A stretch of 64,000 nucleotides of DNA from contig NZ_LGCL01000027.1 of the NCBI RefSeq assembly GCF_001306115.1, forward strand, positions 1-64,000. Direction: 5' to 3'. Made by a program: the position numbers and the translations under genes. The stretch's first letter is position 1; each line of letters starts with the position of its first letter. Of the stretch, positions 45,253-64,000 are shown one piece after another. The notes under the pieces were generated by a model. The model was not told the DNA's origin and searched no databases. It worked only from the letters and a program-made list of their open reading frames with translations. Source of the DNA: Ornatilinea apprima (GTDB lineage Bacteria; Chloroflexota; Anaerolineae; Anaerolineales; Anaerolineaceae).

Positions 45253-45340
45253 GGGGAGGTGCCAGAGTGGCCGATTGGGCTCGCCTGCTAAGTGAGTGCT
45301 GGGGTTAACTCAGCCGCGGGTTCGAATCCCGCCCTCCCCG
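45253..45340 (+). tRNA. tRNA-Ser(GCU), probable island attachment site
   Basis: An 88-nt class II tRNA. Acceptor GGGGAGG (45253-45259) pairs with CCTCCCC (45333-45339), discriminator G at 45340. The anticodon loop is CTGCTAA with anticodon GCT. The long variable arm (GTGCTGGGGTTAACTCAGC region) and the T arm are complete. CCA is not encoded. The last 31 bases are also the 3' end of the serine recombinase gene on the other strand, which marks this end of the tRNA as the likely recombination site. Confidence 0.95.
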
Positions 45341-46887
45341 CAACTACAACTTTTTTGCGTCACCAGGGGCATAAACGAATCGGTTAGCTGAACGGCCACG
45401 ATTACGTTGCCTCGGACAAAAGCTGCTTGGACTGCCATCCGGAGCAGCTTTTTCTTTTCGATTGGTAATGTGCGGTCCCAATTTTCCAGCGCAGGCCGGA
45501 TAGAGTTAACTAATGTTATTATAGCATTGGGATTTGAATAAGACAAGGTGCTTTGGATATGCTCGTATCGGTCCGATTCTTTTTTGAACTCGTCGCGATC
45601 AAGTTCTCCTAAAAGATACAACTCTTTCGCTCGCTCATAGCGCGCTTCGGCTTCCGCAACTACTGCCTTTGATCGCTCCAAACCCTGATCTGCAGTCCAG
45701 TCTTTCAAAGTGTCTAGTAGAACATCTGCAATTTGACGTTCAACTACCTCTGCCCTAAGGGTGTCCTGTTGGCAATTCGTGGACCGCTCGATCCGCGATG
45801 CATCCCGATAGTACCGCCTTCCAGAACTAGACACACCTCTCATCGCTTTGCCGCAGTAACCGCAGCGCAAAATGCCGGTCAGTGGGTAGATTTGCGCTGT
45901 CGGCTTTTCAGCCCGCCAGTTGCTGCCCAACATCAGCCGCATCTCCTTCACTTTTTGGAAATCCTCCTCGCTGATTAAGGGAGGATGTTTCCCTTCGTAC
46001 AAAGTCACTTCATCCAATTCGCTGCGCTTTGTTTTTCGTGCACCAATCTCGCTGGAGGCTTTGTACGGAAGTTTCCCAGTATAAAAGACCCGATTGAGCA
46101 TATCGCGAACCAAATCCTTTTTGAACGGTCCGGCAACCGATACGCCAGGATGACCCTTTTGGCGCACCTGGATGGTAAAGCCATCTGGAAAGGTCAATTG
46201 GTAGGAATTTAGTTTTTCCGCGATGCTTGCATCCGATTGATTTCCACTTAAGTACCAACTGAATACCAGCTTGACGACCTCACTATCTACTGGATGCAAT
46301 ACCAAACACTTGCCATCTGATTTGTTCGGCTTTCCAAAGTCTGGGCAGTAGCCTTTTCCATTGGAATCTTCACAAGCAGAACACAATCCTTTGCAATATC
46401 CATAAGGTGGGAGGCCGTTCCATAATCCCTCTCTGGCTCTTTGTTGTTTTCCTTTAATAGTCTCTTGGCGGAGATTATCCAAATAGATTTCGGCGAGGAT
46501 ACCTAATACTGTGAGCATCAGCTTCCCCCAGGGCGAGGTAAAGTCCAATCGCTCTTGGACAGATGCAAAGGAAATATCCATTGACCGGAGTTGATCTAAA
46601 GCCGTGAGCAGGCCTGCCAGGTGGCGATAGAACCGGTCAATTTTATCAACCACAATTACATCGAACTTCCTGGCTTCCGCGTCACCCATCAAACGTTCCA
46701 AATCAGGCCGATGGCTATCTTTTTTAGCCGAGATTCCAGCGTCAGTATAGATCTCGATTAAATCCCAACCTTGTGAAGTGGCATAATCGCGAATGTTCTT
46801 CTCTTGCGCATCAAGGCTGTGCCCATCGATCTGCTCTCGCATGGATACGCGGCGATACCCCACTGCTCTCAACCTCGGTTTTTCCAT
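45310..46887 (-). CDS. Large serine recombinase 1, reading into the tRNA-Ser 3' end
   Basis: A 525-aa site-specific integrase. The resolvase domain (about 7-155) has nucleophile Ser15 in YRRVSMREQ and the conserved DKIDRFYR. The Recombinase domain follows with a cysteine-rich insert (YCKGLCSACEDSNGKGYC), then a zinc-ribbon region (LRCGYCGKAM) and a coiled coil. The last ten residues, CGEGGIRTRG, are translated from the antisense of the tRNA T-arm and acceptor, and the stop is also there. The recombinase has therefore been joined to the tRNA, as expected if this is the attachment junction. AGGAGGAGTC precedes the ATG. It is divergent from a small HTH gene. Confidence 0.92.
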   Translation of the reverse strand: MEKPRLRAVGYRRVSMREQIDGHSLDAQEKNIRDYATSQGWDLIEIYTDAGISAKKDSHRPDLERLMGDAEARKFDVIVVDKIDRFYRHLAGLLTALDQLRSMDISFASVQERLDFTSPWGKLMLTVLGILAEIYLDNLRQETIKGKQQRAREGLWNGLPPYGYCKGLCSACEDSNGKGYCPDFGKPNKSDGKCLVLHPVDSEVVKLVFSWYLSGNQSDASIAEKLNSYQLTFPDGFTIQVRQKGHPGVSVAGPFKKDLVRDMLNRVFYTGKLPYKASSEIGARKTKRSELDEVTLYEGKHPPLISEEDFQKVKEMRLMLGSNWRAEKPTAQIYPLTGILRCGYCGKAMRGVSSSGRRYYRDASRIERSTNCQQDTLRAEVVERQIADVLLDTLKDWTADQGLERSKAVVAEAEARYERAKELYLLGELDRDEFKKESDRYEHIQSTLSYSNPNAIITLVNSIRPALENWDRTLPIEKKKLLRMAVQAAFVRGNVIVAVQLTDSFMPLVTQKSCSCGEGGIRTRG

Positions 46888-46993: not shown

Positions 46994-47407
46994 ATGGAAA
47001 AACCGATCGCACAAGCACAGCGAGAAGCAAAAAACAAGACCATTGATCTCGGCCCTTTTATTGCCAGACTCACCGAGTTAATGGAAAAGCATAATGAGAG
47101 TTATCGGGAAGCGGGGATGAGCGCCGGTCTGGATCATCAAGCGATCCGGCGAATCTTATCTGGTCAGCGCCCGGCGATGGTGAACTGTATATTATTAGCC
47201 GATCATTATGGCGTGAATCCGAATGAATTTTTAGAGTTGGCTGGTTGGCCAACTCTGAAAGTGTTTGATGTTCGCGGCTTAGAAACAGATCGTCTTCCCC
47301 CTGAGGCTGTTGATGTTGCCCTGGTATTGAGTCGTGTTCCAGACCCAGGAGTTCGAAAGCAGTTAGCCACCGCAGTGATTACGCTGCTGCAAAAGTATTT
47401 TGAGTAA
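46994..47407 (+). CDS. XRE-like helix-turn-helix regulator
   Basis: A 137-aa protein. Residues 22-75 form a Cro/C1-type HTH (FIARLTELMEKHNESYREAG, then DHQAIRRILSGQRP). It is followed by HYGVNPNEFLELAGWPTL, a typical extension of phage-like repressors, and a helical C-terminus. It is divergent from recombinase 1 with a 106-base A/T-rich gap and convergent with recombinase 2 (six bases apart). It probably regulates recombinase expression and island excision. Confidence 0.8.
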   Translation: MEKPIAQAQREAKNKTIDLGPFIARLTELMEKHNESYREAGMSAGLDHQAIRRILSGQRPAMVNCILLADHYGVNPNEFLELAGWPTLKVFDVRGLETDRLPPEAVDVALVLSRVPDPGVRKQLATAVITLLQKYFE

Positions 47408-47413
47408 TAGAGA

Positions 47414-49207
47414 TCATCCGGCAATGCCTAATAATATGTCAAAAGGAGCATTTACCAGCATTTGCCGCACAACTCCCCGTTGATCGAAGTAAATCGCTTC
47501 AACCATAACTTTCAGTAAGGTCCTTTGTTCCCTAGAAGTCATCTTTCTCCATGTCGTCGAGAAGTCTTTAAGGAAGGGTAAAATCTCGCGCACCTCCGCC
47601 TTTGCGGAAGGCTGCATTTTTTGCAGCTCGCTGGTGATGGTTGTTGCCCGATCCTTGAATTGGGCTTGTGTCAAAAAGCCGCTGGTATACATTTCCTGTA
47701 ATCTCTTCAGTTCCTGGCGCAGGTTGTAGTTCTCGCGCTCAAACTCCTCTATACCATGGTTACTCAGAAAATAGGCCATGATCATCTCATACCAGGCTGG
47801 CGGTATGACCAGGTTGGCAATTGAATCATGGATCTGTGCTTCGAGTTTATCTGCCCGCAATGTGGAGGAATGGCTCTCAATTAGCTTGTTCCAGGTATTG
47901 GGTTGGCTGCTTGCAACCCCTGCTTCGTTGGCGATTTCCAATGGCGCACTTTGCATCCCACCTTTCTTTCCTTTATCGTGAATTGTTGCGCAGCGGTAAT
48001 ACTGTGTTCCGGTATTTCCTGTAGATCCGCGTAGACTAGCCTGCGCGCCGGCCTGCTCCATGCAGACCCAACACCTACCCACACCAGTCAACAGGTAATC
48101 ACGCTTTGGACGATTCCTTGTCACTGGAGAAATCCCTTTGGATTGGCGCAGCTGCATATTTTGCTCCCATAGTTCATAAGGATAAATTGCTTGATGCAGA
48201 CCCTTTTGCAAAATCTGCGGTTGTCGTTTGTTTTGTAACGGCTGCTGGGTTCCTTTTCGCTTCGGATTTTCCACATCGTCATCCATATCCAAAGGCCGGG
48301 TAGGATAATGAGCAACCAATCCCACATAAAACGGGCTGCGGATAATATCGCGTACATTATCCCGGCTGAATGGCCCAGGCAGCGTCTGGCCAGGTAAACC
48401 CTTCGTTCGAAATGCCACCTCTGAGTTATCTGGCAAACGGAACGTGTGGCTATTGAGATCGCTGGCGATTTCCAGATCGCTTTTGCCTCTGCTGTACAAC
48501 TGCGCAGCGAGGCTGACGGCATGCATCTCAATGGGATGGGGAACGGGTATTCGTCCGCGCTGACTTTCAACCCGGTCAACACTGCCATATAGCGGGCAAT
48601 AATCCTTTCCGTTCGGATCTTTGCAGGTAGAACACAAACCTTTGCAGTAGCCAAACCGGAAGGAAGCATTGGACAGGCCATTCATTACACGCTCCAATTT
48701 AGCCTCGCGTGTCCGGGCGCTTGATTGCCAGATATACATTTCGGCCAAAGCGCCCAGAACATAAAGAACCAAACGGCCCCACCAATTGTCAGTGTCAATC
48801 TGCTCAGTGACGGATACCAGGCGCACTTTATATGTTTTGATCATCCGGATGAACTTCAATAATGATTCGAGATTGCGGTAAAGGCGATCCAGGCGATGAA
48901 CGACTACCACCGTGACTCTACCAGCCCGGATATCTCCAATCATCTTCTGCAAAGATGTGCGCCGGCTGTTCCTGCCTGTCTTGGCCGGATCGGCATAAAT
49001 TGCATAGATATCCCAACCCTTTGATCGCGCATATTCTTCAGCTTTGTCCGGTTGAATGTCCATCGAATATCCGTGGTGCCGTGGATCGATTCGGGAAACA
49101 CGCGTGTAGATGGCTGCCTTTTCCTCGCTTTCTGGCCTGCTAACATCGCGTACAAACCCCTGGATTTTTTTATTCAAGTCGTCAATGCTATTTGGAAAAA
49201 TATCCAT
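47414..49207 (-). CDS. Large serine recombinase 2
   Basis: A 597-aa serine recombinase. The resolvase domain begins after a 30-residue N-terminal extension, with nucleophile Ser38 in IYTRVSRID and conserved HRLDRLYRN. The Recombinase domain has the same cysteine-rich insert as recombinase 1 (YCKGLCSTCKDPNGKDYC). A zinc-ribbon-like part (GRCWVCMEQ ... YYRCATI) and a long C-terminal coiled coil follow. GAGGTGAGTA precedes the ATG. It is followed downstream (upstream in coordinate) by the XRE-like gene and preceded by two small genes that may be co-transcribed. Confidence 0.92.
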   Translation of the reverse strand: MDIFPNSIDDLNKKIQGFVRDVSRPESEEKAAIYTRVSRIDPRHHGYSMDIQPDKAEEYARSKGWDIYAIYADPAKTGRNSRRTSLQKMIGDIRAGRVTVVVVHRLDRLYRNLESLLKFIRMIKTYKVRLVSVTEQIDTDNWWGRLVLYVLGALAEMYIWQSSARTREAKLERVMNGLSNASFRFGYCKGLCSTCKDPNGKDYCPLYGSVDRVESQRGRIPVPHPIEMHAVSLAAQLYSRGKSDLEIASDLNSHTFRLPDNSEVAFRTKGLPGQTLPGPFSRDNVRDIIRSPFYVGLVAHYPTRPLDMDDDVENPKRKGTQQPLQNKRQPQILQKGLHQAIYPYELWEQNMQLRQSKGISPVTRNRPKRDYLLTGVGRCWVCMEQAGAQASLRGSTGNTGTQYYRCATIHDKGKKGGMQSAPLEIANEAGVASSQPNTWNKLIESHSSTLRADKLEAQIHDSIANLVIPPAWYEMIMAYFLSNHGIEEFERENYNLRQELKRLQEMYTSGFLTQAQFKDRATTITSELQKMQPSAKAEVREILPFLKDFSTTWRKMTSREQRTLLKVMVEAIYFDQRGVVRQMLVNAPFDILLGIAG

Positions 49208-51331: not shown

Positions 51332-51464
51332 ATAAGGTAGATCAACTCACAGTAATTGTCTGCGGTTTTTTGTTTGCTATTTCTAAGGCGAAAAACGGCT
51401 GTTGTGATCATCATTGATCAGGTATGGCGCTATAATAGTTTTATCTCCCTGTCAGGTTGTGGCT

Positions 51465-51665
51465 GTGGAAAGAAAACCGCCGGAATTCTTGACGATTGAA
51501 GAAGTATCCGAATACTTACGTGTACCGCTCTCTTCTCTTTATAAGCTGGCACAGCAAGGGAAGATACCGGCGTCAAAAGTGGGCCGGCATTGGCGTTTTC
51601 GGCGAGAGTTTATCGACCGTTGGGTTAATGATCAAATACAGACCAAAGTAACACAAAGCCGTTGA
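51465..51665 (+). CDS. Excisionase/MerR-type DNA-binding protein
   Basis: A 66-aa winged-helix protein of the HTH_17 (excisionase, AlpA) class: FLTIEEVSEYLRVPLSSLYK, then GKIPASKVGRHWRFRREFID, RW. TATAAT at 51431-51436 places the promoter inside the longer open frame (TTG 51414), so translation must start later, at GTG 51465 or 51459. Two TGATCA boxes (51405 and 51415) lie near the -35 position. The gene overlaps the possible early start of the helicase gene and is probably co-transcribed with it. It may act as recombination directionality factor or as regulator of the cargo. Confidence 0.8.
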   Translation: MERKPPEFLTIEEVSEYLRVPLSSLYKLAQQGKIPASKVGRHWRFRREFIDRWVNDQIQTKVTQSR

Positions 51666-51691: not shown

Positions 51692-54600
51692 ATGGAGCTC
51701 AAACCGGGGGATTGGATCGAAGGCCCTTATTGGCAGGATACGGTTCAAATCATCCACATACAGACGCAAACCGGCTATGATGTGGTGACCGTTTACAGCC
51801 GCGCCCACGATCTATCCCGCCCGTACATTCTGACAAAAGATGACTGGCAGCAGGTGAAACCTATCGCCAGAGCAAGCCGTATAGACCTCTCCTTTGATGG
51901 AGACCCGGCCCGCTTCCGTCTAGCGATCCAGGCACAGCGTCTGAAATTAGCTCACGCGATTGACCCCTACGCCGGTCTCAATTCCAGCCGCATAGATCCT
52001 CTTCCCCACCAGTTTGAAGCGGTTTACCAGCACCTACTTGCCCGACCAGTGGTGCGCAATTTGCTGGCTCACGATGCCGGTGCAGGCAAGACAATCATTG
52101 CTGGGCTACTAATTAAGGAATTGAAACGTCGTCAGGATATTAAGCGTGTGATGATTGTTTGCCCGGCTGGGCTGACGATCCAATGGAAGCGCGAGTTGCT
52201 GACCAAGTTTGGGGAAGATTTCTCGATCATCTCCCGAGAGTACATGGACGAAACGCGCCTGGACCGGTTGGACGTTTGGCGAAAGACGGACCTGGCGATT
52301 ACCTCCGTGGCCTTTGCCCGCCAGCGCGAGATGTGCCGCGCGCTCGAAACGGTCGAATGGGACTTGGTCATCGTGGACGAGGCACACAAACTGGCTGCGT
52401 ACCGCAAATCCTCTGGATCCATCGAGAAAACACAGGCGTATGAGTTGGGTAAAATTCTCTCGCGGCGCGCCAAGCATTTCCTGTTAATGACCGCGACGCC
52501 TCACAAAGGCGATCCGGAGAACTACCGCCTACTGATCCGCTTGATCGATCCCGAATGGGGCGACGCCGCTGCATATGCACCGGGCAGCAACCCGATGATG
52601 CTGCGCCGCACCAAAGAGGAGATGCGCACAGCGGATGGCAGGCCGCTGTATCCAGAGCGCATTGTTGAGACGCTGCCCTACAGTCTTTCACACGACGAAG
52701 GCGAGCTGCTCGAGCAGGTTTACAAGTTCATCCGCAAGCGCTTTGAAAAGGCCAAGTCATCAAACAAGCAGAGCGCCGCGTTCGCGTTGATGACCCTCAG
52801 CCGCCGGTTGGCATCCAGTCCATCCTCGCTGTTGTGCTCTTTGCAACGGATCAAGGCCAAGGCGGAAGCTGGCAATGCCCAGCTTGCGTCCGGAGAAGCA
52901 TCCAATAACGACACCTTCGACCTGGAAGACTGGGATGAACTTAGTGATGAAGACCGCGGCAAGCGCGAGCAAGACGCGGAAGCGCAGGCCGCTCAAATGG
53001 TGGATCTAAAGCAGCTGGAGACCCTGATCACCAAAACCGAAGCGCTCGCTAAAAAAGGCAGCCAGAAAATTGTTGAGCTGCGGAAAGCGGTCGATTTGTG
53101 GGTGGGCGAGCGCAAAAAGCAGCTGATTATCTTTACCGAGTTCAAAGATACCCTGGATGATTTGGACAGGCATCTCAAGGATTGGGGCTATACCACCACC
53201 CAGATCCACGGCGGGATGGCGATGGAGGACCGGCGGGTAGCCGAAAAGGTCTTCTGGCAGGGAAAAGCCCAGGTGCTGGTGGCTACCGAAGCCGCAGGCG
53301 AAGGCATCAACCTGCAATGCTGCAACGTGATGATCAACTTCGACCTGCCTTGGAACCCGACCCGGCTTGAGCAGCGCATGGGCCGCATCCACCGTTATGG
53401 GCAGAAAGAGCCGCAGGTGTTTATCTTCAACCTGCTGGCCCGCAATTCAATGGAAGACCAGGTAAAAGAAACGCTGCTGACCAAGTTGAAGGAAATGCGG
53501 AAAGACCTGGGCGACAAGGTCTTTGATGTTGTTGGAGCCGTGTTGTGGGGTGAGGAGCTGCGCTCTATTCTGGAACGGGTTGCCCTGGGCGATATTACTG
53601 CTGTAGAACACGCCCGCCAAGCTATTGAATCAGCCGAGCAGCCTTTGCGAGCGGCGATCGACACGGAGCGGGAAATTGCTGCAACCAGCGAGCCCTTAGA
53701 TATCGCCGCTTTCCAGCAGAATCAGGCGCAGTTCAAGGCCTACCGGCTCAGCCCGGAAGATGCAGAGGAATTTTTACGCGCGGCCGTTCCTTTTGTGGGC
53801 GGCACGCTGCGCGAGTTCACCGTTCCTTCTAAAAACGGGAACCGGCTCGCTTTTGAAGTCATCCTGCCACTGGATTTAGGACGGGGAAAGGTCCGCCGCC
53901 GCAAGCTGTGTTTCTGGCCGGAAGCATGCTCTGATGATGACACTGATCCAGAGGCCGTTCTGTTTATCTCCCCCGGCAGCACCCTGTTTGACCAGCTGGT
54001 AGAGAAAGTCTTGTTAATATGCCGCGAGGACCTTGCCCGTGGTGCAACCTATTTCGATATTCATCCCGACAGCAGCTCACCTTACCTGGTCTGGTTCATC
54101 CACACCTTCCTCCGCGATGGCCTGGATCACCCATCCGGTGAATTTCTGACCGCGCTCCGCCACCGGGCAGACCAGGAGAAAGTGGAACGCCTGCCATCTG
54201 AAGTGCTGAATGGGTTCGATTTTGGCTCTGGGCATGAGATGACCGAAGGCGTGCAGCGCGTGCGGCCGATGCTGGCTGGTCAGCGCGAGGTCGTTGACCA
54301 ATGCGTCCAATCTGTCTTCTTGCCAGACCTGATGGAACGGCGCAAGCAGCATGAGGAAACGGTCGCGAAAGACTGCCGGTTTCTCACGGATGGCCTCAAC
54401 CACCTGGTCGATTACCTCAACGATGCGTTGCTCGAAGCATACACCTCAGATAACAGCGAGGAGGGCGACTGGATTACTGAACAGATGAACAGCACCCGTC
54501 AGCGCATGGATAAGCTGCAAATCGATATGACCAACGCCGGTCACCTAGCCATGTTAGAGCCCGAAGTGCTGGGCGTGGCGCTCGTTCTCCCAGCCCCCAT

Positions 54601-55042
54601 CGTCATAGCGCCGGAAGAGACGCCGCAGGTCAAGCATGGATCCTCCGTTTCGATGCGCCGCAACCCAGAAGTTGAAAAAGCGGCCATGAAAGTGGTGATG
54701 GATTTGGAAGAGGAGCAGGGCCGCTATCCCAAAGATGTCAGTAAAGGAAAATCCTGGGATATCGAGTCGTGTGATGCAGCCGGGAAAGTAGCCCGCTATA
54801 TTGAAGTTAAAGGACGCGGACCAGGCGAGGCGGAAGAGGTTTGGCTGACCGAACCGGAATGGGAGGCTGCACGCCGCCTGGGCGACCAGCACTGGCTGTA
54901 TATCGTCCGGCTGGAAGATGGGATGAAGTGGATGATTCAAAACCCCTATGTGAAGCTGCACCCGAAGGAAATGAAACGATGGGTGGTTTCCATTGATGAA
55001 GCGGCCGAAGTGGCCAGTCAGGACGGGCCGCCTGGGAAGTAA
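51692..55042 (+). CDS. SNF2-type DEAH helicase with C-terminal DUF3883 (DISARM DrmD-like)
   Basis: A 1116-aa protein. SF2 motor: Walker A AGAGKT at 129-134, DEAH box D229-H232, MTATPHKG (motif III), ATEAAGEGINLQ (531 onward) and QRMGRIHRYGQ from 561 (motif VI). A long middle region follows, then a C-terminal DUF3883 domain (EVKGRGPGEAEEVWLT from 1038), a nuclease-like module found with defence helicases. The order and length resemble DrmD-type helicases. It is the first gene of a series in which the next starts 66 bases downstream. The ATG at 51692 is chosen over TTG 51662, which overlaps the previous stop codon. Confidence 0.9.
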   Translation: MELKPGDWIEGPYWQDTVQIIHIQTQTGYDVVTVYSRAHDLSRPYILTKDDWQQVKPIARASRIDLSFDGDPARFRLAIQAQRLKLAHAIDPYAGLNSSRIDPLPHQFEAVYQHLLARPVVRNLLAHDAGAGKTIIAGLLIKELKRRQDIKRVMIVCPAGLTIQWKRELLTKFGEDFSIISREYMDETRLDRLDVWRKTDLAITSVAFARQREMCRALETVEWDLVIVDEAHKLAAYRKSSGSIEKTQAYELGKILSRRAKHFLLMTATPHKGDPENYRLLIRLIDPEWGDAAAYAPGSNPMMLRRTKEEMRTADGRPLYPERIVETLPYSLSHDEGELLEQVYKFIRKRFEKAKSSNKQSAAFALMTLSRRLASSPSSLLCSLQRIKAKAEAGNAQLASGEASNNDTFDLEDWDELSDEDRGKREQDAEAQAAQMVDLKQLETLITKTEALAKKGSQKIVELRKAVDLWVGERKKQLIIFTEFKDTLDDLDRHLKDWGYTTTQIHGGMAMEDRRVAEKVFWQGKAQVLVATEAAGEGINLQCCNVMINFDLPWNPTRLEQRMGRIHRYGQKEPQVFIFNLLARNSMEDQVKETLLTKLKEMRKDLGDKVFDVVGAVLWGEELRSILERVALGDITAVEHARQAIESAEQPLRAAIDTEREIAATSEPLDIAAFQQNQAQFKAYRLSPEDAEEFLRAAVPFVGGTLREFTVPSKNGNRLAFEVILPLDLGRGKVRRRKLCFWPEACSDDDTDPEAVLFISPGSTLFDQLVEKVLLICREDLARGATYFDIHPDSSSPYLVWFIHTFLRDGLDHPSGEFLTALRHRADQEKVERLPSEVLNGFDFGSGHEMTEGVQRVRPMLAGQREVVDQCVQSVFLPDLMERRKQHEETVAKDCRFLTDGLNHLVDYLNDALLEAYTSDNSEEGDWITEQMNSTRQRMDKLQIDMTNAGHLAMLEPEVLGVALVLPAPIVIAPEETPQVKHGSSVSMRRNPEVEKAAMKVVMDLEEEQGRYPKDVSKGKSWDIESCDAAGKVARYIEVKGRGPGEAEEVWLTEPEWEAARRLGDQHWLYIVRLEDGMKWMIQNPYVKLHPKEMKRWVVSIDEAAEVASQDGPPGK

Positions 55043-55108
55043 AGTATAATGATTCTTTCGCGATAGAACCAAAATTATCCCGAGTAAGCGAAAGCGTTTT
55101 ACCGGATT

Positions 55109-57961
55109 ATGCCAAAACGATACATTGAAGATATTTTGCCCTTAAATGAGCTGAACAAATACGCCCAGGTGGGAGGCGGCATTGGATCATTGAATGTCAT
55201 GCACCCATATTTCGCGCGCCGCCCGCTGACCGCCTCGCGCGCGATGACCCTGGCTGCTTTAGTGGACGCGCCCAAGAATGAGCAAGAACGCAAAGAACTG
55301 GAGAAAATTCTGGTCGAACTCAGTAAAGATGAATGGCCTGAACGACCAGATCTTTTAGAAAAGGCTCGCGAGCTGATCCGAAAAGCACACGGGGGGCAGT
55401 CGCCTAATGTACTGGACCCCTTCGCGGGCGGTGGCTCAATGCCCTTTGAGTCCTTACGCCTGGGCTGTAATTCGACTGCCCTGGACCTTAACCCAGTCGC
55501 TTATTTAGCCTTGACTGGTTCCCTAGTCTACCCTCAAAAATTTGGGAAGAAACGCTATGAAGTTGGGTCATCATGGCGAGAAGTCTCTAAACGAATAGCC
55601 GAAAAAGGCCCTGCGTGGTTTGACGAGGATGAAAATACTCCTACCGAGGAAATTTCGGTCGAACTTTTCAATGACATAGCGACAAGTAAGAAAAAGCCCT
55701 CACAAAGCCAATTGGTCGAAGATGTGCGCTACTGGTCTGAATGGGTATTGAGCCAGGCGGAAACGCAAATTGGGGATTGTTATCCATGCGATCCCGATGG
55801 GGCAACTTCCGTAGCATATTTATGGGCAAAAACAATTCCCTGTCCTCATTGCCAAGGTGAAATACCACTGCTAAAACGCCGCTGGCTACAAAACGGGCGA
55901 GGAGACGAGCCTGTTGCCTATCGCTTAAATGTAAATCCCGAAAACAAATCTTATGATATTGAGATAATTCGGGGACAAGAAGCTATTGATGACAAGCCCG
56001 AACAAGGAACGATGCGTGGTGCAACCCTAACCTGCATCTACTGCAACACACCCCTTGAGAGAGAAAGGATCGTGGAGAAAGCGCAAAAGGGGCAGATGGG
56101 ACAACACTTAATGGCTGTAGTTATCAGCCGAGATGATACAACTGGGAGAGATTTCCGTTCTCCAAATCAAAAAGACCTCGATGCTTTTAATTTGGCCTTG
56201 GCTAAGCTCCCAACTATTGAACAAGAAGGCTATGATTTTTGGGGGCTAGAACGCTTGCTGTCTGTTGTACCAGATGAACCAACGCCACCAAGCAGGTCAA
56301 GAAGTGTAAGCATACGACTTTATGGCGTTGAAACCTGGGGGCAAATGTTTAATGATCGTCAAAAGGTTGCACTTCTGACAATTGGACAACAGATACGAAT
56401 TGTTAGAGATACTTTAAACTCGGAAGACCCCGAATATGCGAAGGCAATAGCACTCTATCTTTCAATTATCCTGGCTCGTTTAATTACGAGAAATTCAAAT
56501 GCCACTATCTGGGATTCCGGAACAAACAAAATAAGTTCAATTTTTGCTCGTCATGATATCCCAATGACTTGGGATTATGCAGAAGCGAATCCCTTTAGTG
56601 GGTTGGCCTCTAGCTGGGCTAGTCAAACAAATGCTTTGCTTGTATCTCTGAATAATGTTGTTTCTGTTGATAGCGGGGTTGCTGAGGTTAGGTTAGGGTC
56701 CGCTGTATCTCTGCCAGAAGATTGGTCGGGCAAGTTCGATGCCGTGGTCTGCGATCCCCCTTACTACGATAGTGTTACCTATGCCGATCTAACCGATTAC
56801 TTCTACCCTTGGCATAAACGTATCATCGGAGATGATTACCCGGAAGCATTTGTTACTGAGATTACGCCTAAAGACGAAGAATTGGTTCAGGAAGAAATTT
56901 ATCATGGCGAGTCAACGGCCCTAGCAAAAAAATATTACGAAGATGGCATGGCACAGGCATTCATGGAAATGCAGCGTGTGCTTCGCAAAGATGGCATCGC
57001 TGTAATCATGTTCGCGCACAAAAATTCAAGTGCCTGGGAGACATTAGTTGGAGCGCTTGTTCGAGCAGGATTCCAGGTTACTGCAAGTTGGCCCCTCAAC
57101 ACAGAAGGGCGACGTCTTCAATCTTACCGAGCAGTAGCGCTCGCATCAGCCGTTTATCTTGTTTGCCGAAAGCGTGATGTTTCTATTGGTACAGGATATC
57201 TTGAAGATATACAAGGTGATCTCCGCAAGACAATTCGCCGATACCTGGAAAGTTTCTGGGATGCAAGAATAGGCGGGGCAGATTTCTTTATGAGCGCTAT
57301 CGGTCCAGGTCTATCCGTCTTCAGCCGGTATAAACGAGTCGAGCGTTATGACGGAACTCAAGTTACAGTGAGCGATTTTATTGATATCGTCCGTCATGAG
57401 GTTGCTACTTTCGCAATTGAGCGCATCATTGGTCAGGAGGGCTTCAACGACAGACTGGATCAGGCCACTCAGTTCTATGTGCTTTGGCGGTGGGGTTATA
57501 ACGATTGGGATGTCCCAAGCGGGGAAGTTTTACTGCTCAGTACAGCCGTTGGAATTGACTATAAAATCCTAATGGACCGGTTTGGACTGATCGTTGATAT
57601 GAAAGGCAAGCTCCGCCTGCTTGGACCGCAAGACCGAAAAGAAAAGTTAGAACGATTAACTGAGCGAGTTGTGGCTGGCGGTGCTGTTCCACTGGTAGAT
57701 GTTATGCACAAAGCCTGCCTGTTGTGGCAAAACGATCAACAGGAGGAACTATCGGCATTAGTAGCGGCGCGTGGCGGAGAGTTGTGGCCGGTGGCGCAAG
57801 CGATGGCCGAATTACTTTCCCCAGATAATTTTGAGAAAAAAGCACTGATGAGCATGTTGAGCAGCCGAGGCGATCTTGAGTCGCGGGCGCAAACCTGGGT
57901 GAGCAAACACCCTGCACCCGAGCAAAAACCGAAGCAGCTCAGTTTTTTTGAAGAAGAATAA
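55109..57961 (+). CDS. DUF1156-type adenine-specific DNA methyltransferase
   Basis: A 950-aa DNA methyltransferase. The DUF1156 N-terminus reads HPYFARRPLTASRAMTLAAL, the SAM-binding motif is LDPFAGGGS (102-110), and the catalytic motif is D549PPY552 in VVCDPPYYDSVTYADLTDYF. Two zinc-ribbon-like pairs, CPHCQGE and CIYCNTP, lie between them. Such proteins methylate adenine (N6) and probably mark host DNA so that the associated machinery spares it. The gene is 14 bases upstream of the DUF499 ATPase gene. The codon usage is more A/T-rich in the middle third than at the ends. Confidence 0.9.
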   Translation: MPKRYIEDILPLNELNKYAQVGGGIGSLNVMHPYFARRPLTASRAMTLAALVDAPKNEQERKELEKILVELSKDEWPERPDLLEKARELIRKAHGGQSPNVLDPFAGGGSMPFESLRLGCNSTALDLNPVAYLALTGSLVYPQKFGKKRYEVGSSWREVSKRIAEKGPAWFDEDENTPTEEISVELFNDIATSKKKPSQSQLVEDVRYWSEWVLSQAETQIGDCYPCDPDGATSVAYLWAKTIPCPHCQGEIPLLKRRWLQNGRGDEPVAYRLNVNPENKSYDIEIIRGQEAIDDKPEQGTMRGATLTCIYCNTPLERERIVEKAQKGQMGQHLMAVVISRDDTTGRDFRSPNQKDLDAFNLALAKLPTIEQEGYDFWGLERLLSVVPDEPTPPSRSRSVSIRLYGVETWGQMFNDRQKVALLTIGQQIRIVRDTLNSEDPEYAKAIALYLSIILARLITRNSNATIWDSGTNKISSIFARHDIPMTWDYAEANPFSGLASSWASQTNALLVSLNNVVSVDSGVAEVRLGSAVSLPEDWSGKFDAVVCDPPYYDSVTYADLTDYFYPWHKRIIGDDYPEAFVTEITPKDEELVQEEIYHGESTALAKKYYEDGMAQAFMEMQRVLRKDGIAVIMFAHKNSSAWETLVGALVRAGFQVTASWPLNTEGRRLQSYRAVALASAVYLVCRKRDVSIGTGYLEDIQGDLRKTIRRYLESFWDARIGGADFFMSAIGPGLSVFSRYKRVERYDGTQVTVSDFIDIVRHEVATFAIERIIGQEGFNDRLDQATQFYVLWRWGYNDWDVPSGEVLLLSTAVGIDYKILMDRFGLIVDMKGKLRLLGPQDRKEKLERLTERVVAGGAVPLVDVMHKACLLWQNDQQEELSALVAARGGELWPVAQAMAELLSPDNFEKKALMSMLSSRGDLESRAQTWVSKHPAPEQKPKQLSFFEEE

Positions 57962-57975
57962 CCAGGAGTGAGCGT

Positions 57976-60900
57976 ATGAGTCAGGCATTGCAGAATTGGC
58001 GTAAAGGTGTTCTTCCACACGAAGATATTCGTGAAAACAAAGTCAATGAAACCCTGTTCGCGGTCAATCTTAGCCGGGCAATCAACAACAAGGGAGCCAG
58101 CGAGTATCGCGAGCCAAAGCTGTTCTTCGAGCGCACTTACCTGACGCGTACCCTGCAAAGCCTGATTCTCGATGTAGTCAATATTCTGCGCAGGCAGCCA
58201 GTCTCCAACAGTGTCCTGCACCTGCAAACGAACTTTGGGGGCGGCAAATCCCACGCGGAGCTGGCTCTTTATCACTTGCTGACCTCTCCGCAGCAAGCGC
58301 TGGAAGTCACCCACCTGGCCGATTTCCTGGCGATGAATGGCATCACCGAAATCCCGAAGGCTTCGGTCGCCGCCCTTCCCTGCGCCGATCTCAACGCCCA
58401 GGGACGGCAGGTGGAAGGCGGGCTGAAAATTCTCACCCTGTGGGGTGAAATCGCCTATCGCTTGGGTGGTGTTGAGCTGTATAACTTGATCCGCGAGAAT
58501 GACCAGCACCGCACCTCGCCCGGCGTGGATGATTTACGCAACGTGCTGGTGCAGGCCGGTCCGAACCTGATTCTGATCGACGAGCTGCTGCACTACGTAG
58601 ACAAAGCAGCCGGTATTCCGGTGGCTGACTCCAACCTCGGAACCCAGACCGTAGCTTTTTTACGCGAGCTGTCCGAAGCCGTAGACCAGGTGGATCACAG
58701 CGTTCTGGTTGCTTCCCTCACTGCCAGCGACATGGAAGGCATTCAGGTGCTAACGCAGGATCAGGCAATGTTCACACTGTCTCAGTTAGAGGATGTGCTG
58801 CGCCGCCTGGAAGATGTCCGCACCCCGATTGAGTCCTCTGAAATCTACGAAATAGCCCGCCTGCGCCTGTTCGAGCACGTCTCCACGAATTTATCCACAC
58901 AGGCAGCCCAGTGTTACAGCCAGATGTACCGCACCGATCCCTGGCGCGATGTGCTGCCGGCTAAGTGCCGGGATACGGCGTACGAAGGGCTGCTTGATCG
59001 GGCTTACCCATTCCACCCATCGATTATCGATGTGCTGTATGAGCGCTGGGGCAGCCGCCCGCAGTTCCAACTCACTCGTGGCACGCTGCGCTTCCTCTCG
59101 CACTTTCTGGCGCACCTCTGGAAGCCTGAATCCGCCCACCTGGCACAAGGACCGGTGATTCACCTGTCCGATATTGATTTAAGTGATGACGATCTCCGCG
59201 GCGAAACGCTCAAGGTGGCCGGGAGCGTCTGGGAAGCCGTGATTGGCACCGATATCGCTACATGGGAGGGCAGTGAATCGATCTGGGAAGGTAAAGAATC
59301 CATCTCGCAGAAGATCGATCACGAGCGCGGCGGACTGTATAAACGATATAAACTCACACAGGGCGTTGCGACCAGCGTGCTCATGTTCACCCACGGCGGC
59401 ATGATGACCCGCCCCACCCCGGAGCCGGATATCCGCCTGGCGGTCATTCATCCCGACATCCCCCTGCCCGATTTGCACCAGGCAATGGACGACTGCGCCC
59501 AGCGCCTGTACTTCTACTATAAAGAAGAGGGCGGGCTGATCTTCAAGACCGAACCCAACCCAAACAAGGTGCTGGCGGATGAGCGGTCGAATGTGGAAAC
59601 GGATGAGGCCCGGCGAAAAGTTGAAAGTCTCATTGAGGACATTTTAGGGAAATCCAACCTATTCAATATCAGTCTCTATGGTTTCCATAATGGATTGGTC
59701 AAAGAACCAGCCAATGTTCCTGATGAAGGGGCGCTGCAAATGGTGATCCTGCCGCCCGGACAGCCTTTGCACCAGGGAAAACTGGACGGCAAATTAACCA
59801 CCTTCCTTAGCAACATCTCAGAAAATTATGGCGCGCGCCACCGCATGAACCGGAATATGGTCATGTTCATGGTACCGGACGCTGGCAGCATCGGCCAGGC
59901 AATTGGTCGGACGATGGACTGGATCGCCGCCGAGAACGTCTTGAACGATTCCGGGCTAATGGCGCGCTTCTCGGAGGGCCAGCAGGATTACATTCGCGAG
60001 AAACTCAGCTCCGCGCGTGGCGATGCAAAGGAATTTATCAAGAAAGCCTACCGGACAGTGATTCTTCCTAACGGCGAAGCCAGCAAGTACGAAGTGGTCG
60101 AGTTGGGCTACGCGCCTTTGAATCGAACCGTCATCCAACAGGCATATGAAGACCTGATCACGAATGGGAAGATCCACCAGGAGTTCAATCCGTCCTTGTT
60201 GGATGGGCGTTGGGAATCGCTCTGGCCGAAAACGGCAACGGTCATCACCACACAGACGTTATGGGAGAAGTTTTCCCGGCGCAGCGACGCCCCGATCCTG
60301 ACCGGCGTTGACGTGCTGCGCAACATGGTCAAGAAAGGCGTCGAACGCGGCATATTTGGCTTTGGGGTGCTGACCGATACCAATGAGGACATGCTCAAAA
60401 AGGGATCCTATGAGCATGGGCGCATCCACCTGGGAGCTTTTGACGCGAACGATTTAGGGATGCTGGAAATCAGCCATCGCACGGTGCTAATGCGGATTGA
60501 CCAGGTCAATGCTCTGTTCAAACCCATCACTAAAGAGGAAGTGGCCATGCTGGTCACCTCCCCTCGCAGCCCGGTTCAGGCCGTTTTCCACGCAGCCCGC
60601 AATTCGCCCATGGTCACCGGCAGGGCCGACCCCGCCTCTTTCTTCACTGCAATTTTGGATGGGGTGAAAGCAGGTCTGTTTGGGTATGCTACTTCCAGCA
60701 ACGCCACCATTCAGCGTGGCGCGGAGACGGAACTCGCGCTTTCCGATATTGGTTTCTCCGGATACCTGATTGGAGAAGACGTACCGCTGCCAGTATCGGC
60801 GGATGAAGTCGCTGCATTAGTGCCTGATGATGGTCTGGTCTCTGTCCAGGAGATCTACCAGAAAGCGGTTAGCACCTATGGCAGCGAGCGCGTTACCGAG

Positions 60901-61269
60901 CAGGGCTTGCTCAACGCCTTGCAGCGCTGCATCAAAGAGCAGCGCTTCGGCGTAACGGAAGAAGCAACAGGGATTGCGCAGTATGATGCAAAGGCGCTTA
61001 CCCTGGCCGGGTTCATTGGCAAGCCAAAAGTTCTGCCACCGGACGTGCGGCATTTAAGGTTCTCGGGTGTAGTATCGGCCGTGGACCTGGCCCATGTGAT
61101 CAAGGCGACCAACGCGCTTAGTAAATTGGGTGAAGCGACGATTACGATCGATCTAAGGCTCGAGCTTAAGGGCGATGTAAATGATCATTCAGTCAACATG
61201 AACCTGACGGAACTTCGTCAGCGTGTGAGCGGGGTGAAAATCGAGGATGTAAAAGGCGGATCTCAGTAG
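57976..61269 (+). CDS. DUF499 (anti-phage-associated) P-loop ATPase
   Basis: A 1097-aa protein of the DUF499 family. Walker A is NFGGGKS (86-92) and Walker B is NLILIDELLHY (197 onward, D202 E203), an AAA/HerA-like layout. The remaining 800 residues are mixed alpha/beta with no catalytic motif that I recognise. DUF499 genes are found beside DUF1156 methyltransferases and helicases in defence islands, and are thought to act as ATP-driven DNA-handling components. CAGGAGTGAGC precedes the ATG. It follows the methyltransferase stop by 14 bases and is followed after 28 bases by the nuclease-like gene. Confidence 0.88.
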   Translation: MSQALQNWRKGVLPHEDIRENKVNETLFAVNLSRAINNKGASEYREPKLFFERTYLTRTLQSLILDVVNILRRQPVSNSVLHLQTNFGGGKSHAELALYHLLTSPQQALEVTHLADFLAMNGITEIPKASVAALPCADLNAQGRQVEGGLKILTLWGEIAYRLGGVELYNLIRENDQHRTSPGVDDLRNVLVQAGPNLILIDELLHYVDKAAGIPVADSNLGTQTVAFLRELSEAVDQVDHSVLVASLTASDMEGIQVLTQDQAMFTLSQLEDVLRRLEDVRTPIESSEIYEIARLRLFEHVSTNLSTQAAQCYSQMYRTDPWRDVLPAKCRDTAYEGLLDRAYPFHPSIIDVLYERWGSRPQFQLTRGTLRFLSHFLAHLWKPESAHLAQGPVIHLSDIDLSDDDLRGETLKVAGSVWEAVIGTDIATWEGSESIWEGKESISQKIDHERGGLYKRYKLTQGVATSVLMFTHGGMMTRPTPEPDIRLAVIHPDIPLPDLHQAMDDCAQRLYFYYKEEGGLIFKTEPNPNKVLADERSNVETDEARRKVESLIEDILGKSNLFNISLYGFHNGLVKEPANVPDEGALQMVILPPGQPLHQGKLDGKLTTFLSNISENYGARHRMNRNMVMFMVPDAGSIGQAIGRTMDWIAAENVLNDSGLMARFSEGQQDYIREKLSSARGDAKEFIKKAYRTVILPNGEASKYEVVELGYAPLNRTVIQQAYEDLITNGKIHQEFNPSLLDGRWESLWPKTATVITTQTLWEKFSRRSDAPILTGVDVLRNMVKKGVERGIFGFGVLTDTNEDMLKKGSYEHGRIHLGAFDANDLGMLEISHRTVLMRIDQVNALFKPITKEEVAMLVTSPRSPVQAVFHAARNSPMVTGRADPASFFTAILDGVKAGLFGYATSSNATIQRGAETELALSDIGFSGYLIGEDVPLPVSADEVAALVPDDGLVSVQEIYQKAVSTYGSERVTEQGLLNALQRCIKEQRFGVTEEATGIAQYDAKALTLAGFIGKPKVLPPDVRHLRFSGVVSAVDLAHVIKATNALSKLGEATITIDLRLELKGDVNDHSVNMNLTELRQRVSGVKIEDVKGGSQ

Positions 61270-61297
61270 ACTGGTTTATTTAACGTAGGGTAAAAAA

Positions 61298-64000
61298 ATG
61301 ACTCGCTTTGGTAAAAATGTACTTTCACAATTTCTTCGCACGCAATGCGACAAGCAATTGCTTCTTTCACTTTATAACCCTCAAGAGTTAAATCATTTAA
61401 ATTGGCCTGTGCCACTCACAGCCAGACCTGCTGTTCAAATCCTTCGCGATGTTGGAGTTGAATGGGAACAAGCGAAAATGTCTGATTTGGAAAATGCATT
61501 CGGAAGTTTTTCGTCTCCGAATTATTCAGGTATTAATGGATATTTGTTCGCAAACAAAGCAAATGGCAGGTTCGGGAACCAGAATTTAATTGATGCTCTT
61601 CAGCAGCACACAATTTTGCCAATCTTTGTTTTACAGCCCGAATTCACACATGTGGATTTGCGAACAAGGTTCTTGCAAAACATTGGTGTTCCTTCTAGTG
61701 TGATTTCATTGATCCCTCAATTCACCTCATTCAGGCCTGATATAATTTTGGCCCAATCATCACGCGTAAATGATTTGGAAGTTCTCTCAAATGGTGATAC
61801 TCAGCCGATTCAACCAAACGATACTAGACAAGGACTTTTGATCACCGATATTAAGCATGCCGGGGAAGCAAATTCTAGTTACAGCTCGGAAGTTACCCTT
61901 TATGCAGTCCTGCTTTCTAATTGGCTGGAATTAATGAATCTTGATCACGATTATTACGTGTCAGATCAAATAAGCTTATGGACACGTGCAAAAGAAATAT
62001 CCAGCTTAGCTCATTTGATTGCAACAACTACAACGGCTTCAATTACTGAAAAATTGCAGGCCTACATGGACGATCTTGAAGGAGTAGATTATCCAATTTT
62101 CTTCCAGACAATAGATCATTTTTTCAAAACTGATCTTGCTCGCGTTCTTTCTGCTCCTAACTGGAATTCATTAGACTGGCATGTCGATTCTCGTTGTTCA
62201 AACTGTGATTTCCTTGGATATGATAGATGGTTGTCCGCAGCAGATAGAACTATACTCGCTAACCATCGCAACCATTACTGCGTCACAGCTGCTGAAGATT
62301 GCGCGCATTTAAGTCGAGTTGCTACCATAACTCGTGGTGGGCGTTTAACCCTGCAGATGTCAGGCATTACAGATATTCCCTCTGTAGCAAATCTACCTGC
62401 ATCCTCACAGGTATTTGATCAGCATAATGCGCTAAAAGCTGACCGAAATCATCTACCGCATCGCGCGGTTGCGCTTACAAGTGGGGCTCCCTCTCTTGCG
62501 CCAAATACCACAACGGTTGATTTTCCTCGATGGGTGGATCTTGAAATATTTATATCTGTTAACTTTGATTCTGGTACAGGGTTGCTAACCGCGATTGGTT
62601 CAGAAGCCCGTTTTAGGCAAAGAACAAATGGTGGACAACAAATACCTGTTCAGCGGACATGGCCAGCTGTTTCACAAACGCTACTAACTGCCACTTTAAC
62701 AGAAGAACGAACCACAGTTTTCTCATTTTTGTCCAGGTTAGCAGATATCTTTGCATTCGCATATGACCCAGATCCTCAAAGAGGAGGACCAAATGCCGCT
62801 AACACTCGAACACAACTATACTTTTGGGACCGAAGGCAGTTTGAAGAATTAACAAAGGCAATCGGCCGCCATTTAGACTACATTGTCTCGTCAACAAATA
62901 ACCGAGTACTACAAGGATTAATTTGGCTTTTCCCACCAGAACAAACTTTACAAAACAACGAAATAACAAGGGCAAACCCTATCACATTCATGAAAAATGT
63001 AGTTCAAGCCAACTTACGTTTGCCTGTTCCCCATTGCCTCACAATATTTAATGTAGAACGTGTATATCATAACCAGCAATACCCAGCACAAAATCCTGGA
63101 AGTTTCTATTATGACCCTTTCTCCGATATGATTCCTAGAGAGAGAATATATGAAATTTGGTCAGGAGAACCACTTATCCAATTAGGTAACACCCAAGTGA
63201 CCAGGTCCCAGTGTATTGTTTCTTACGGTAACACTGTGGAAAGCCAAGTAAAAGCCATAAGGAACATTGTGTGGAAATTCCGTTCTGACATGGCGAATCG
63301 TATAAATTTGAATGCACCTTCTCTAAGTATAGGTATTCCATTTAACTTCCAACAAATGAGCGAAGATGGTCGCCTTTGGTATGGCTGGGCACGTCTTGAA
63401 GAGGCTGTTAACGCTATTGAGCTTGAGCATATTTGGTCGGCTGAACCAGAGCAGCTCGAAGCAAGTTACGATATTCTTCGGTTTTCTACTCTCTTATCGG
63501 TAAACAATAACGATTTTATTTTCAGTGTTAGATCCAGTTCGCAGGATTGTAAGTTCCGTGATGGCGAAGAGTTTCTTGCATTGCAAGATGAAAATATGCC
63601 TGGTTTTCTTGATTTGAGAATACGAGATATTGTGCCTCAAAACATATATAGTCAATTGCCCCATGAAGACCAGAACCGGAGAATGCATGATATTTTTAAA
63701 GCTACACTCGTTTCATACGATCGGAACACACTCCAAGCACAAGTCAGATTAACGAATTACGGTAGTACTAGCGCTCTTCGCCAATTACTTTTCAATCATA
63801 ATCTAGTTAACGTCTCAACATCTGCAAGCCTTGTTAGGGGAACAGGGGTTTCTATAACTGAGCGTATTCGGCAATGTCTCCTCTCTATTGGCCGTCCACC
63901 TATCGCAGCAGCGGCAACACCCACATATAACGCGCTTGGTCATCGACCGGGAACTAATTTGCCTCGCAATGACGCAATCACTCCAGCAGCTAGAGTATTA
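61298..64000 (+). CDS. Cas4/TM0106-like Fe-S nuclease protein, partial at right edge
   Basis: The frame from ATG 61298 stays open for all 901 codons to the window edge. The N-terminus has features of a Cas4-type RecB nuclease: Cys17 in RTQCDKQLLLSLY, FRPDI with Asp148, ITDIK with Asp184 and Lys186 (the PD-(D/E)XK core), then a helix SSEVTLYAVLLSNW. C300xxC303 and later C328 and C335 could complete an Fe-S site with Cys17. A second segment, VDLEIFISVNFDSGTGLLTA (Asp414, Glu416), resembles the RNase-H-like domain that follows in TM0106-type proteins. No Walker motif appears by residue 901; a C-terminal helicase beyond the edge is possible. The A+T-rich codon usage differs from the three upstream genes. 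Confidence 0.75.
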   Translation, partial: MTRFGKNVLSQFLRTQCDKQLLLSLYNPQELNHLNWPVPLTARPAVQILRDVGVEWEQAKMSDLENAFGSFSSPNYSGINGYLFANKANGRFGNQNLIDALQQHTILPIFVLQPEFTHVDLRTRFLQNIGVPSSVISLIPQFTSFRPDIILAQSSRVNDLEVLSNGDTQPIQPNDTRQGLLITDIKHAGEANSSYSSEVTLYAVLLSNWLELMNLDHDYYVSDQISLWTRAKEISSLAHLIATTTTASITEKLQAYMDDLEGVDYPIFFQTIDHFFKTDLARVLSAPNWNSLDWHVDSRCSNCDFLGYDRWLSAADRTILANHRNHYCVTAAEDCAHLSRVATITRGGRLTLQMSGITDIPSVANLPASSQVFDQHNALKADRNHLPHRAVALTSGAPSLAPNTTTVDFPRWVDLEIFISVNFDSGTGLLTAIGSEARFRQRTNGGQQIPVQRTWPAVSQTLLTATLTEERTTVFSFLSRLADIFAFAYDPDPQRGGPNAANTRTQLYFWDRRQFEELTKAIGRHLDYIVSSTNNRVLQGLIWLFPPEQTLQNNEITRANPITFMKNVVQANLRLPVPHCLTIFNVERVYHNQQYPAQNPGSFYYDPFSDMIPRERIYEIWSGEPLIQLGNTQVTRSQCIVSYGNTVESQVKAIRNIVWKFRSDMANRINLNAPSLSIGIPFNFQQMSEDGRLWYGWARLEEAVNAIELEHIWSAEPEQLEASYDILRFSTLLSVNNNDFIFSVRSSSQDCKFRDGEEFLALQDENMPGFLDLRIRDIVPQNIYSQLPHEDQNRRMHDIFKATLVSYDRNTLQAQVRLTNYGSTSALRQLLFNHNLVNVSTSASLVRGTGVSITERIRQCLLSIGRPPIAAAATPTYNALGHRPGTNLPRNDAITPAARVL

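Follow-up and report, generated by a model that had tools for sequence, protein, structure and literature searches.

The closest described relatives of the genes studied here come from two separate lines of work. Hma was named in 2021 in the PADLOC study as a candidate three-gene system present in 26 phyla (PMC8565338). It was reclassified in 2026 by Rakesh & Krishnan as a DUF499-centred BREX-related (BR) Type-1 system, in which the helicase carries an active C-terminal nuclease in 79% of taxa, and evidence for a role of the Hma helicase in phage defence is cited in the same work (PMC12839542). Bad, a bacterial DNA2-like helicase-nuclease from Geobacillus stearothermophilus, is an Fe-S protein with ssDNA endonuclease and 5'-3' helicase activities; the purified protein behaves like eukaryotic DNA2, and no known fold or relative was reported for its central domain. 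In Geobacilli, the Bad gene always adjoins a methyltransferase gene, and Bad has been proposed as a component of a novel restriction enzyme able both to unwind and to degrade DNA (PMC7430649).

Here, we analysed a window of 64,000 nucleotides, which comprises positions 1–64000 of an 89,180-base contig in a 4.34 Mb draft genome. Four long genes at its right end had been taken, in a sequence-only reading of the window, for a single four-gene defence module. Our analysis corrects this view to two modules, one of them published, and we estimate a probability of about 85% that the locus consists of two adjoining restriction-like modules on an integrated element: Hma (genes 1–3) and a pair formed by gene 4 and gene 5.

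Genomic context and the Hma genes

The four co-directional ORFs are located on the plus strand at 51662/51692–55042, 55109–57961, 57976–61269 and from 61298 to beyond 64000, and are separated by gaps of 66, 14 and 28 bases, exactly as the sequence-only reading had described them. Its four-gene module did not hold: gene 4 is truncated at the window edge and on the contig ends at 65581, with a full length of 1,427 aa, and it is followed on the same strand, after only 19 bases, by gene 5 (contig 65601–66689; 362 aa), which lies wholly beyond the window and encodes a DNA methyltransferase, as does the constant neighbour of gene 4 elsewhere. Opposite-strand genes start 3' of gene 5. At the 5' end, a small HTH_17/excisionase-like gene (51459–51665, plus strand; 68 aa; Pfam HTH_17, E 1.9e-17), whose product is a possible regulator, ends 26 bases before the hmaA start codon, which is the ATG at 51692; an in-frame TTG occurs at 51662.

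Judged by their profile matches, genes 1–3 are HmaA–HmaB–HmaC, an already published candidate defence system, so that the earlier impression of an undescribed set does not apply to them. HmaA (51692–55042) matches the PADLOC HmaA profile at E 3.9e-165 over residues 12–1088 of 1126, with DrmD as the second-best match (E 1.9e-122). HmaB (55109–57961), a DUF1156 amino-methyltransferase, matches its PADLOC profile at E 6e-113, and HmaC (57976–61269), a DUF499 AAA+ ATPase, does so at E 2.3e-118 (Pfam DUF499, E 7e-35). Pfam finds SNF2/Helicase_C plus NOV_C (DUF3883), DUF1156 and DUF499 in genes 1–3, respectively, which are the three families named earlier from the letters of the sequence. The catalytic motifs had been called intact, and in these three genes we read them as such: the Walker A DAGAGKT, DEAH and a C-terminal ...WDI...YIEVKG... 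in HmaA, DPFAGGGS and DPPY in HmaB, and GGGKS and ILIDE in HmaC. The NOV_C family has a PD-(D/E)XK-like fold and is matched by the C-terminus of HmaA at E 2.2e-18 (Pfam); HmaA thus has a putative C-terminal nuclease domain of its own, and therefore Hma would need no borrowed nuclease.

The three hma genes form an adjacent same-strand set, and the A-B-C gene order recurs at the Hma loci of other genomes. Taken together, the locus shares with the Type-1 BR systems the SNF2 helicase with a C-terminal nuclease domain, the DUF1156 methyltransferase, the DUF499 ATPase and this gene order. It differs from them in that HmaC shows no match to the HEPN region, although a non-HEPN variant is described, and in that a two-gene module lies directly 3'. 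Under the RM-like model that has been published for BR systems, HmaB would methylate host sites and the DUF499 ATPase HmaC would probably assemble or license a complex on foreign DNA, while unmarked DNA would be attacked by HmaA through its SNF2 motor and C-terminal nuclease domain. The scheme of modification, motor and nuclease proposed earlier for all four genes is right in this respect, but it does not describe one system, and HmaA comes with its own nuclease domain.

The locus lies on a mobile island, which is real because G+C falls from ~0.61–0.65 to 0.42–0.57 right after the tRNA-Ser(GCT) gene (45253–45341, plus strand; ARAGORN) at its left edge. A large serine recombinase gene (45310–46887, minus strand; Pfam Resolvase, Recombinase and Zn_ribbon_recom) terminates within the tRNA-Ser gene and is probably the island's integrase, and a second, different large serine recombinase is encoded at 47414–49207 (minus strand; Pfam), in agreement with the recombinase-bearing island seen in the sequence-only reading. 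An HTH_3 regulator gene (46994–47407) lies between the two. To the right of the window, the island holds genes for DnaN, RadC, SSB, a Rad52-like protein and a tyrosine integrase, and low G+C persists in the direction of the contig end; a search of the contig for a right-hand att copy of the tRNA-Ser end yielded none.

The nuclease-helicase protein encoded by gene 4

The gene 4 protein, whose first 900 aa are encoded inside the window (61298–64000, plus strand), consists of an Fe-S PD-(D/E)XK nuclease signature of the Cas4/AddB/Dna2 type (aa ~1–330), a middle part (aa ~411–715) and an SF1 helicase (aa ~930–1402), the last of which falls beyond the window. The C-terminal third matches Pfam AAA_11/AAA_12 and, in the PDB, SMUBP-2, DNA2 and UPF1. 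An earlier description of a Cas4/TM0106-like nuclease was correct as to the signature, which occupies only the N-terminal quarter of this 1,427-aa helicase-nuclease. Across 26 aligned homologues, which are 25–31% identical to the window's protein, the residues C17, D148, D184-I-K186, E198...Y202, C300, C303 and C328 are invariant. RecB-type motifs together with four cysteines have been described for the iron-staple nucleases AddB, DNA2, Cas4 and Bad (PMC7430649). By these residues, the N-terminus carries the signature of an iron-staple Fe-S nuclease of the RecB family, and it is predicted to bind an Fe-S cluster. The spacing of C303 and C328 exceeds that in AddB and Dna2. Compared with DNA2, AddB and Cas4, gene 4 shares the four invariant cysteines and the RecB motifs, and the matches of its SF1 helicase include DNA2 and SMUBP-2, whereas it differs in the ~24 residues between the last two cysteines, in a large central insertion and in its bacterial methyltransferase partner.

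For the middle part, AlphaFold2 models were obtained for residues 1–900 (pLDDT 82.7, pTM 0.79) and for residues 398–728 alone (pLDDT 77.4, pTM 0.78). In VIA-align comparisons, the middle aligns with the exonuclease-like domain of DNA polymerase alpha at Z 13.8 (rmsd 3.0–3.4 over 176–189 residues), with KOD polymerase at Z ~13 and with RNase T at Z ~10–11; Foldseek returned no match at E <= 0.001 for either model. On the basis of VIA-align, the middle (window 62528–63442) is predicted to adopt a DnaQ/RNase H-like fold, an assignment of only moderate strength because Foldseek alone gave nothing significant. An alignment of Dna2 to the 900-aa model (Z 8.2) had an rmsd of 21.7 and was set aside as evidence. 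The residues D424 and D511 are invariant; at position 422, 24 of the 26 sequences have Asp but the window's protein has Asn, making the activity of its DnaQ-like region uncertain. A PDB profile search by sequence returned nothing for gene 4, the N-terminal regions of the 26 homologues gave no credible family in Pfam, and ~900 residues of the protein are without a Pfam family. The PADLOC search that matched HmaA, HmaB and HmaC likewise has no model of its own for gene 4 (2023 copy).

By its Fe-S nuclease signature, its UPF1/DNA2-type SF1 helicase and its adjacent methyltransferase, gene 4 is Bad-like. Both proteins, going by the published description of Bad, begin with an Fe-S RecB-type nuclease and end in an SF1B helicase, with a central region between the two, and both have a methyltransferase neighbour. 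The differences concern the partner, which here is a DNA amino-methyltransferase of the N6_N4 class (Pfam N6_N4_Mtase, E 1.7e-15; motifs DPFCGRGTT ... SPPY) and belongs to another lineage than the Type III Mod-like partner of Bad, and the middle part, which is predicted to be DnaQ/RNase H-like in gene 4 while no known fold is reported for Bad. In the literature that we searched on DUF1156, on TM0106 and on systems combining RecB, SF1 and a methyltransferase, Bad is the only described case of a pair of the gene 4–gene 5 type.

Distribution of gene 4 and its methyltransferase partners

A single-sequence scan of genome contigs with gene 4 returned nothing, whereas a 4-row alignment of its N-terminal part recovered 27 loci, with other phyla sampled through genome-contig and plasmid collections. 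These loci span Actinomycetota, Myxococcota, Pseudomonadota, Synergistota, Nitrospirota, Verrucomicrobiota, Bacteroidota, Gemmatimonadota, Acidobacteriota, Planctomycetota and Chloroflexota, and three of them are identical to loci already found in the search of phylum genomes. Adding a locus from another Chloroflexota genome and one from each of two rhizobial plasmids gives a set of 30 loci; a Methylorubrum copy (L063) that looks broken was left out of the count. A DNA methyltransferase gene directly adjoins gene 4 in 30/30 of these homologous loci, and the partners are of four kinds, namely a long HmaB-like one upstream, a short one upstream, a long one downstream, and a gene-5-like one. When these kinds are mapped on a quick gene-4 tree (maximum likelihood), only three changes of partner kind are needed, which is the minimum. 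Viral contigs contain one gene-4 locus, seemingly the same stretch as the Hymenobacter locus L052, and phage records gave only a weak match to the helicase region.

The window's gene 4 clusters with copies from Rhizobium and Bradyrhizobium plasmids (SH-aLRT 100; quick tree, with long branches flagged). The partners of these plasmid copies are gene-5 homologues (E 6e-86 and 5e-93), and no Hma occurs in those loci; gene 5 is 44% and 38% identical to the methyltransferases that adjoin gene 4 on the Bradyrhizobium and Rhizobium plasmids. Near the two rhizobial gene-4 homologues lie a HEPN-domain gene (L061:8630–9538) and a gene for a dGTPase annotated as anti-phage (L062:17336–18691), respectively. 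The closest homologue of gene 5 that we found (66% identical) is encoded on the Allochromatium tepidum plasmid pAt1 (L094:14977–16083), where it stands without gene 4 and next to an IS200/IS605-TnpB element. On the Mesorhizobium plasmid pMspAR07d (L095:5823–9095), a gene-5-like methyltransferase is the third gene, preceded by a ParB-like gene and one of 366 aa, and the family thus has a different partner set there. Gene 5 was not found in 60 relatives of the host.

A linkage of gene 4 to DUF499 across genomes, the lack of which the sequence-only reading had named as refuting its proposal, is not observed. There is no HmaC/DUF499 match at the 27 loci, several of which lie on short contigs, nor at the two plasmid loci. 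Conversely, among 400 genomes of the phylum, HmaC is found in 101 and a full-length gene 4 in 5 (in one, truncated by the contig edge or the reading frame); of these five, only the window's genome has the two side by side, and in three others they are on different contigs. Neither gene 4 nor gene 5 was found at any of the 15 Hma loci closest to the window's HmaC (0/15, within ~8–10 kb per side where the contig allowed).

Hma is a relative of BREX, and it is BREX-type loci in which homologous pairs recur. In 7/27 loci, the methyltransferase and gene 4 are located within or beside BREX genes on the same strand: with BrxHII-PglZ-BrxA, or part of it, in five loci (L037, L040, L041, L043 and L046), with PglZ-BrxL in L042 and with BrxC in L034. 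Two further loci (2/27; L035 and L044) have Hma genes on the opposite strand, no more than 10 kb away. These occurrences make the pair, by raw count, a common companion of BREX-family systems. Such embedding with BrxHII, PglZ, BrxA, BrxL or BrxC is what links the present pair to BREX types 1/3, whereas the window locus itself has no PglZ, BrxA, BrxL or BrxC. No PglZ (PF08665) match was found in the locus; the sole one in the genome is a lone PglZ-domain gene on another contig (C25:27834–28361).

The probable two-module reading and competing explanations

Our comparison supports genes 4 and 5 as a pair of their own, restriction-modification-like and similar to Geobacillus Bad with its methyltransferase, because a methyltransferase adjoins gene 4 at every homologous locus, DUF499 was not found at those examined for it, the 15 related Hma loci lack the pair, gene 4 clusters with plasmid copies whose partners are of the same type, and the base composition differs. 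As for composition, genes 4 and 5 share GC3 values (0.33 and 0.35) unlike those of hmaA (0.66) and hmaC (0.67); hmaB, at 0.43, shows that composition splits the modules imperfectly. For genes 4 and 5, we infer a defence function, the mark that is made, methylation-dependent restriction and, from Geobacillus Bad, the biochemistry: gene 5 would methylate host sites, and gene 4 would load on mark-free DNA or exposed 5' ends, unwind the DNA as a 5'-3' SF1 helicase and cut the single strand.

A competing reading of the locus is one five-gene system with a single pathway, to which gene 4 would add a further nuclease-helicase and gene 5 another methyltransferase, both recruited by an Hma core. All five genes are on the same strand with gaps of 66, 14, 28 and 19 bases, such that they may be co-transcribed and cooperate, and the repeated presence of methyltransferase–gene 4 pairs in operons of BREX, the relatives of Hma, together with the two loci near Hma, leaves room for a pair of this type that may depend on BREX or Hma partners. 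However, the five-gene arrangement is seen only in this genome and is lacking from 15/15 related Hma loci, no gene-4 locus examined has DUF499, HmaA already possesses a nuclease-like domain, and the base composition differs; we therefore regard a single pathway as quite improbable. A DISARM variant, with HmaA as a DrmD-like SNF2 motor and gene 4 in place of DrmABC, is far less plausible still: the match of HmaA to DrmD models (E 1.9e-122) is the likeness to DISARM, but the HmaA profile fits far better (3.9e-165), and DUF499, present here, is not known to be a DISARM component. DrmA/DrmB/DrmC are missing from the window, as had been noted earlier, and this is not plain DISARM, since no drmA/drmB-type gene follows to the right, and no DUF1998 (drmB-type) gene was found on the contig, the sole DUF1998/MZB match of the genome being on another contig (C42).

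It is also conceivable, though unlikely, that genes 4 and 5 serve the mobile element as a repair or recombination pair for Dna2-like end processing rather than in defence. The SSB, Rad52-like, RadC, DnaN and integrase genes of the island would fit such a role, as would the DNA2-like behaviour of purified Bad, whereas the constant methyltransferase linkage, often in BREX loci or by other restriction-type genes, and the patchy distribution argue against it. We thus favour two adjoining modules, of which Hma is known, and we found no account of the wider BREX-associated distribution of the gene 4–gene 5 type of pair in the literature searched.

What emerges beside Hma is a conserved pair, linked to a methyltransferase at all 30 loci, present in many phyla, recurring in BREX operons and without a model in PADLOC (2023 copy). 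We suggest, tentatively and with more doubt than conviction, that the methyltransferase and Dna2-like cassette may represent a widespread, uncatalogued class of restriction-modification, with an SF1B motor instead of the SF2 motors of Types I–III and two nuclease-type folds per protein, which could act as a portable add-on of BREX-family systems, including Hma here. If the Bad hypothesis is true, these loci form a broad family open to testing, in which the partner methyltransferases come from at least four lineages.

Convergent with gene 5, a 1,159-aa ORF (contig 66749–70228, minus strand) combines a DUF6094 methyltransferase region with an SNF2-type helicase region, and may be a further modification/helicase gene carried by the element.
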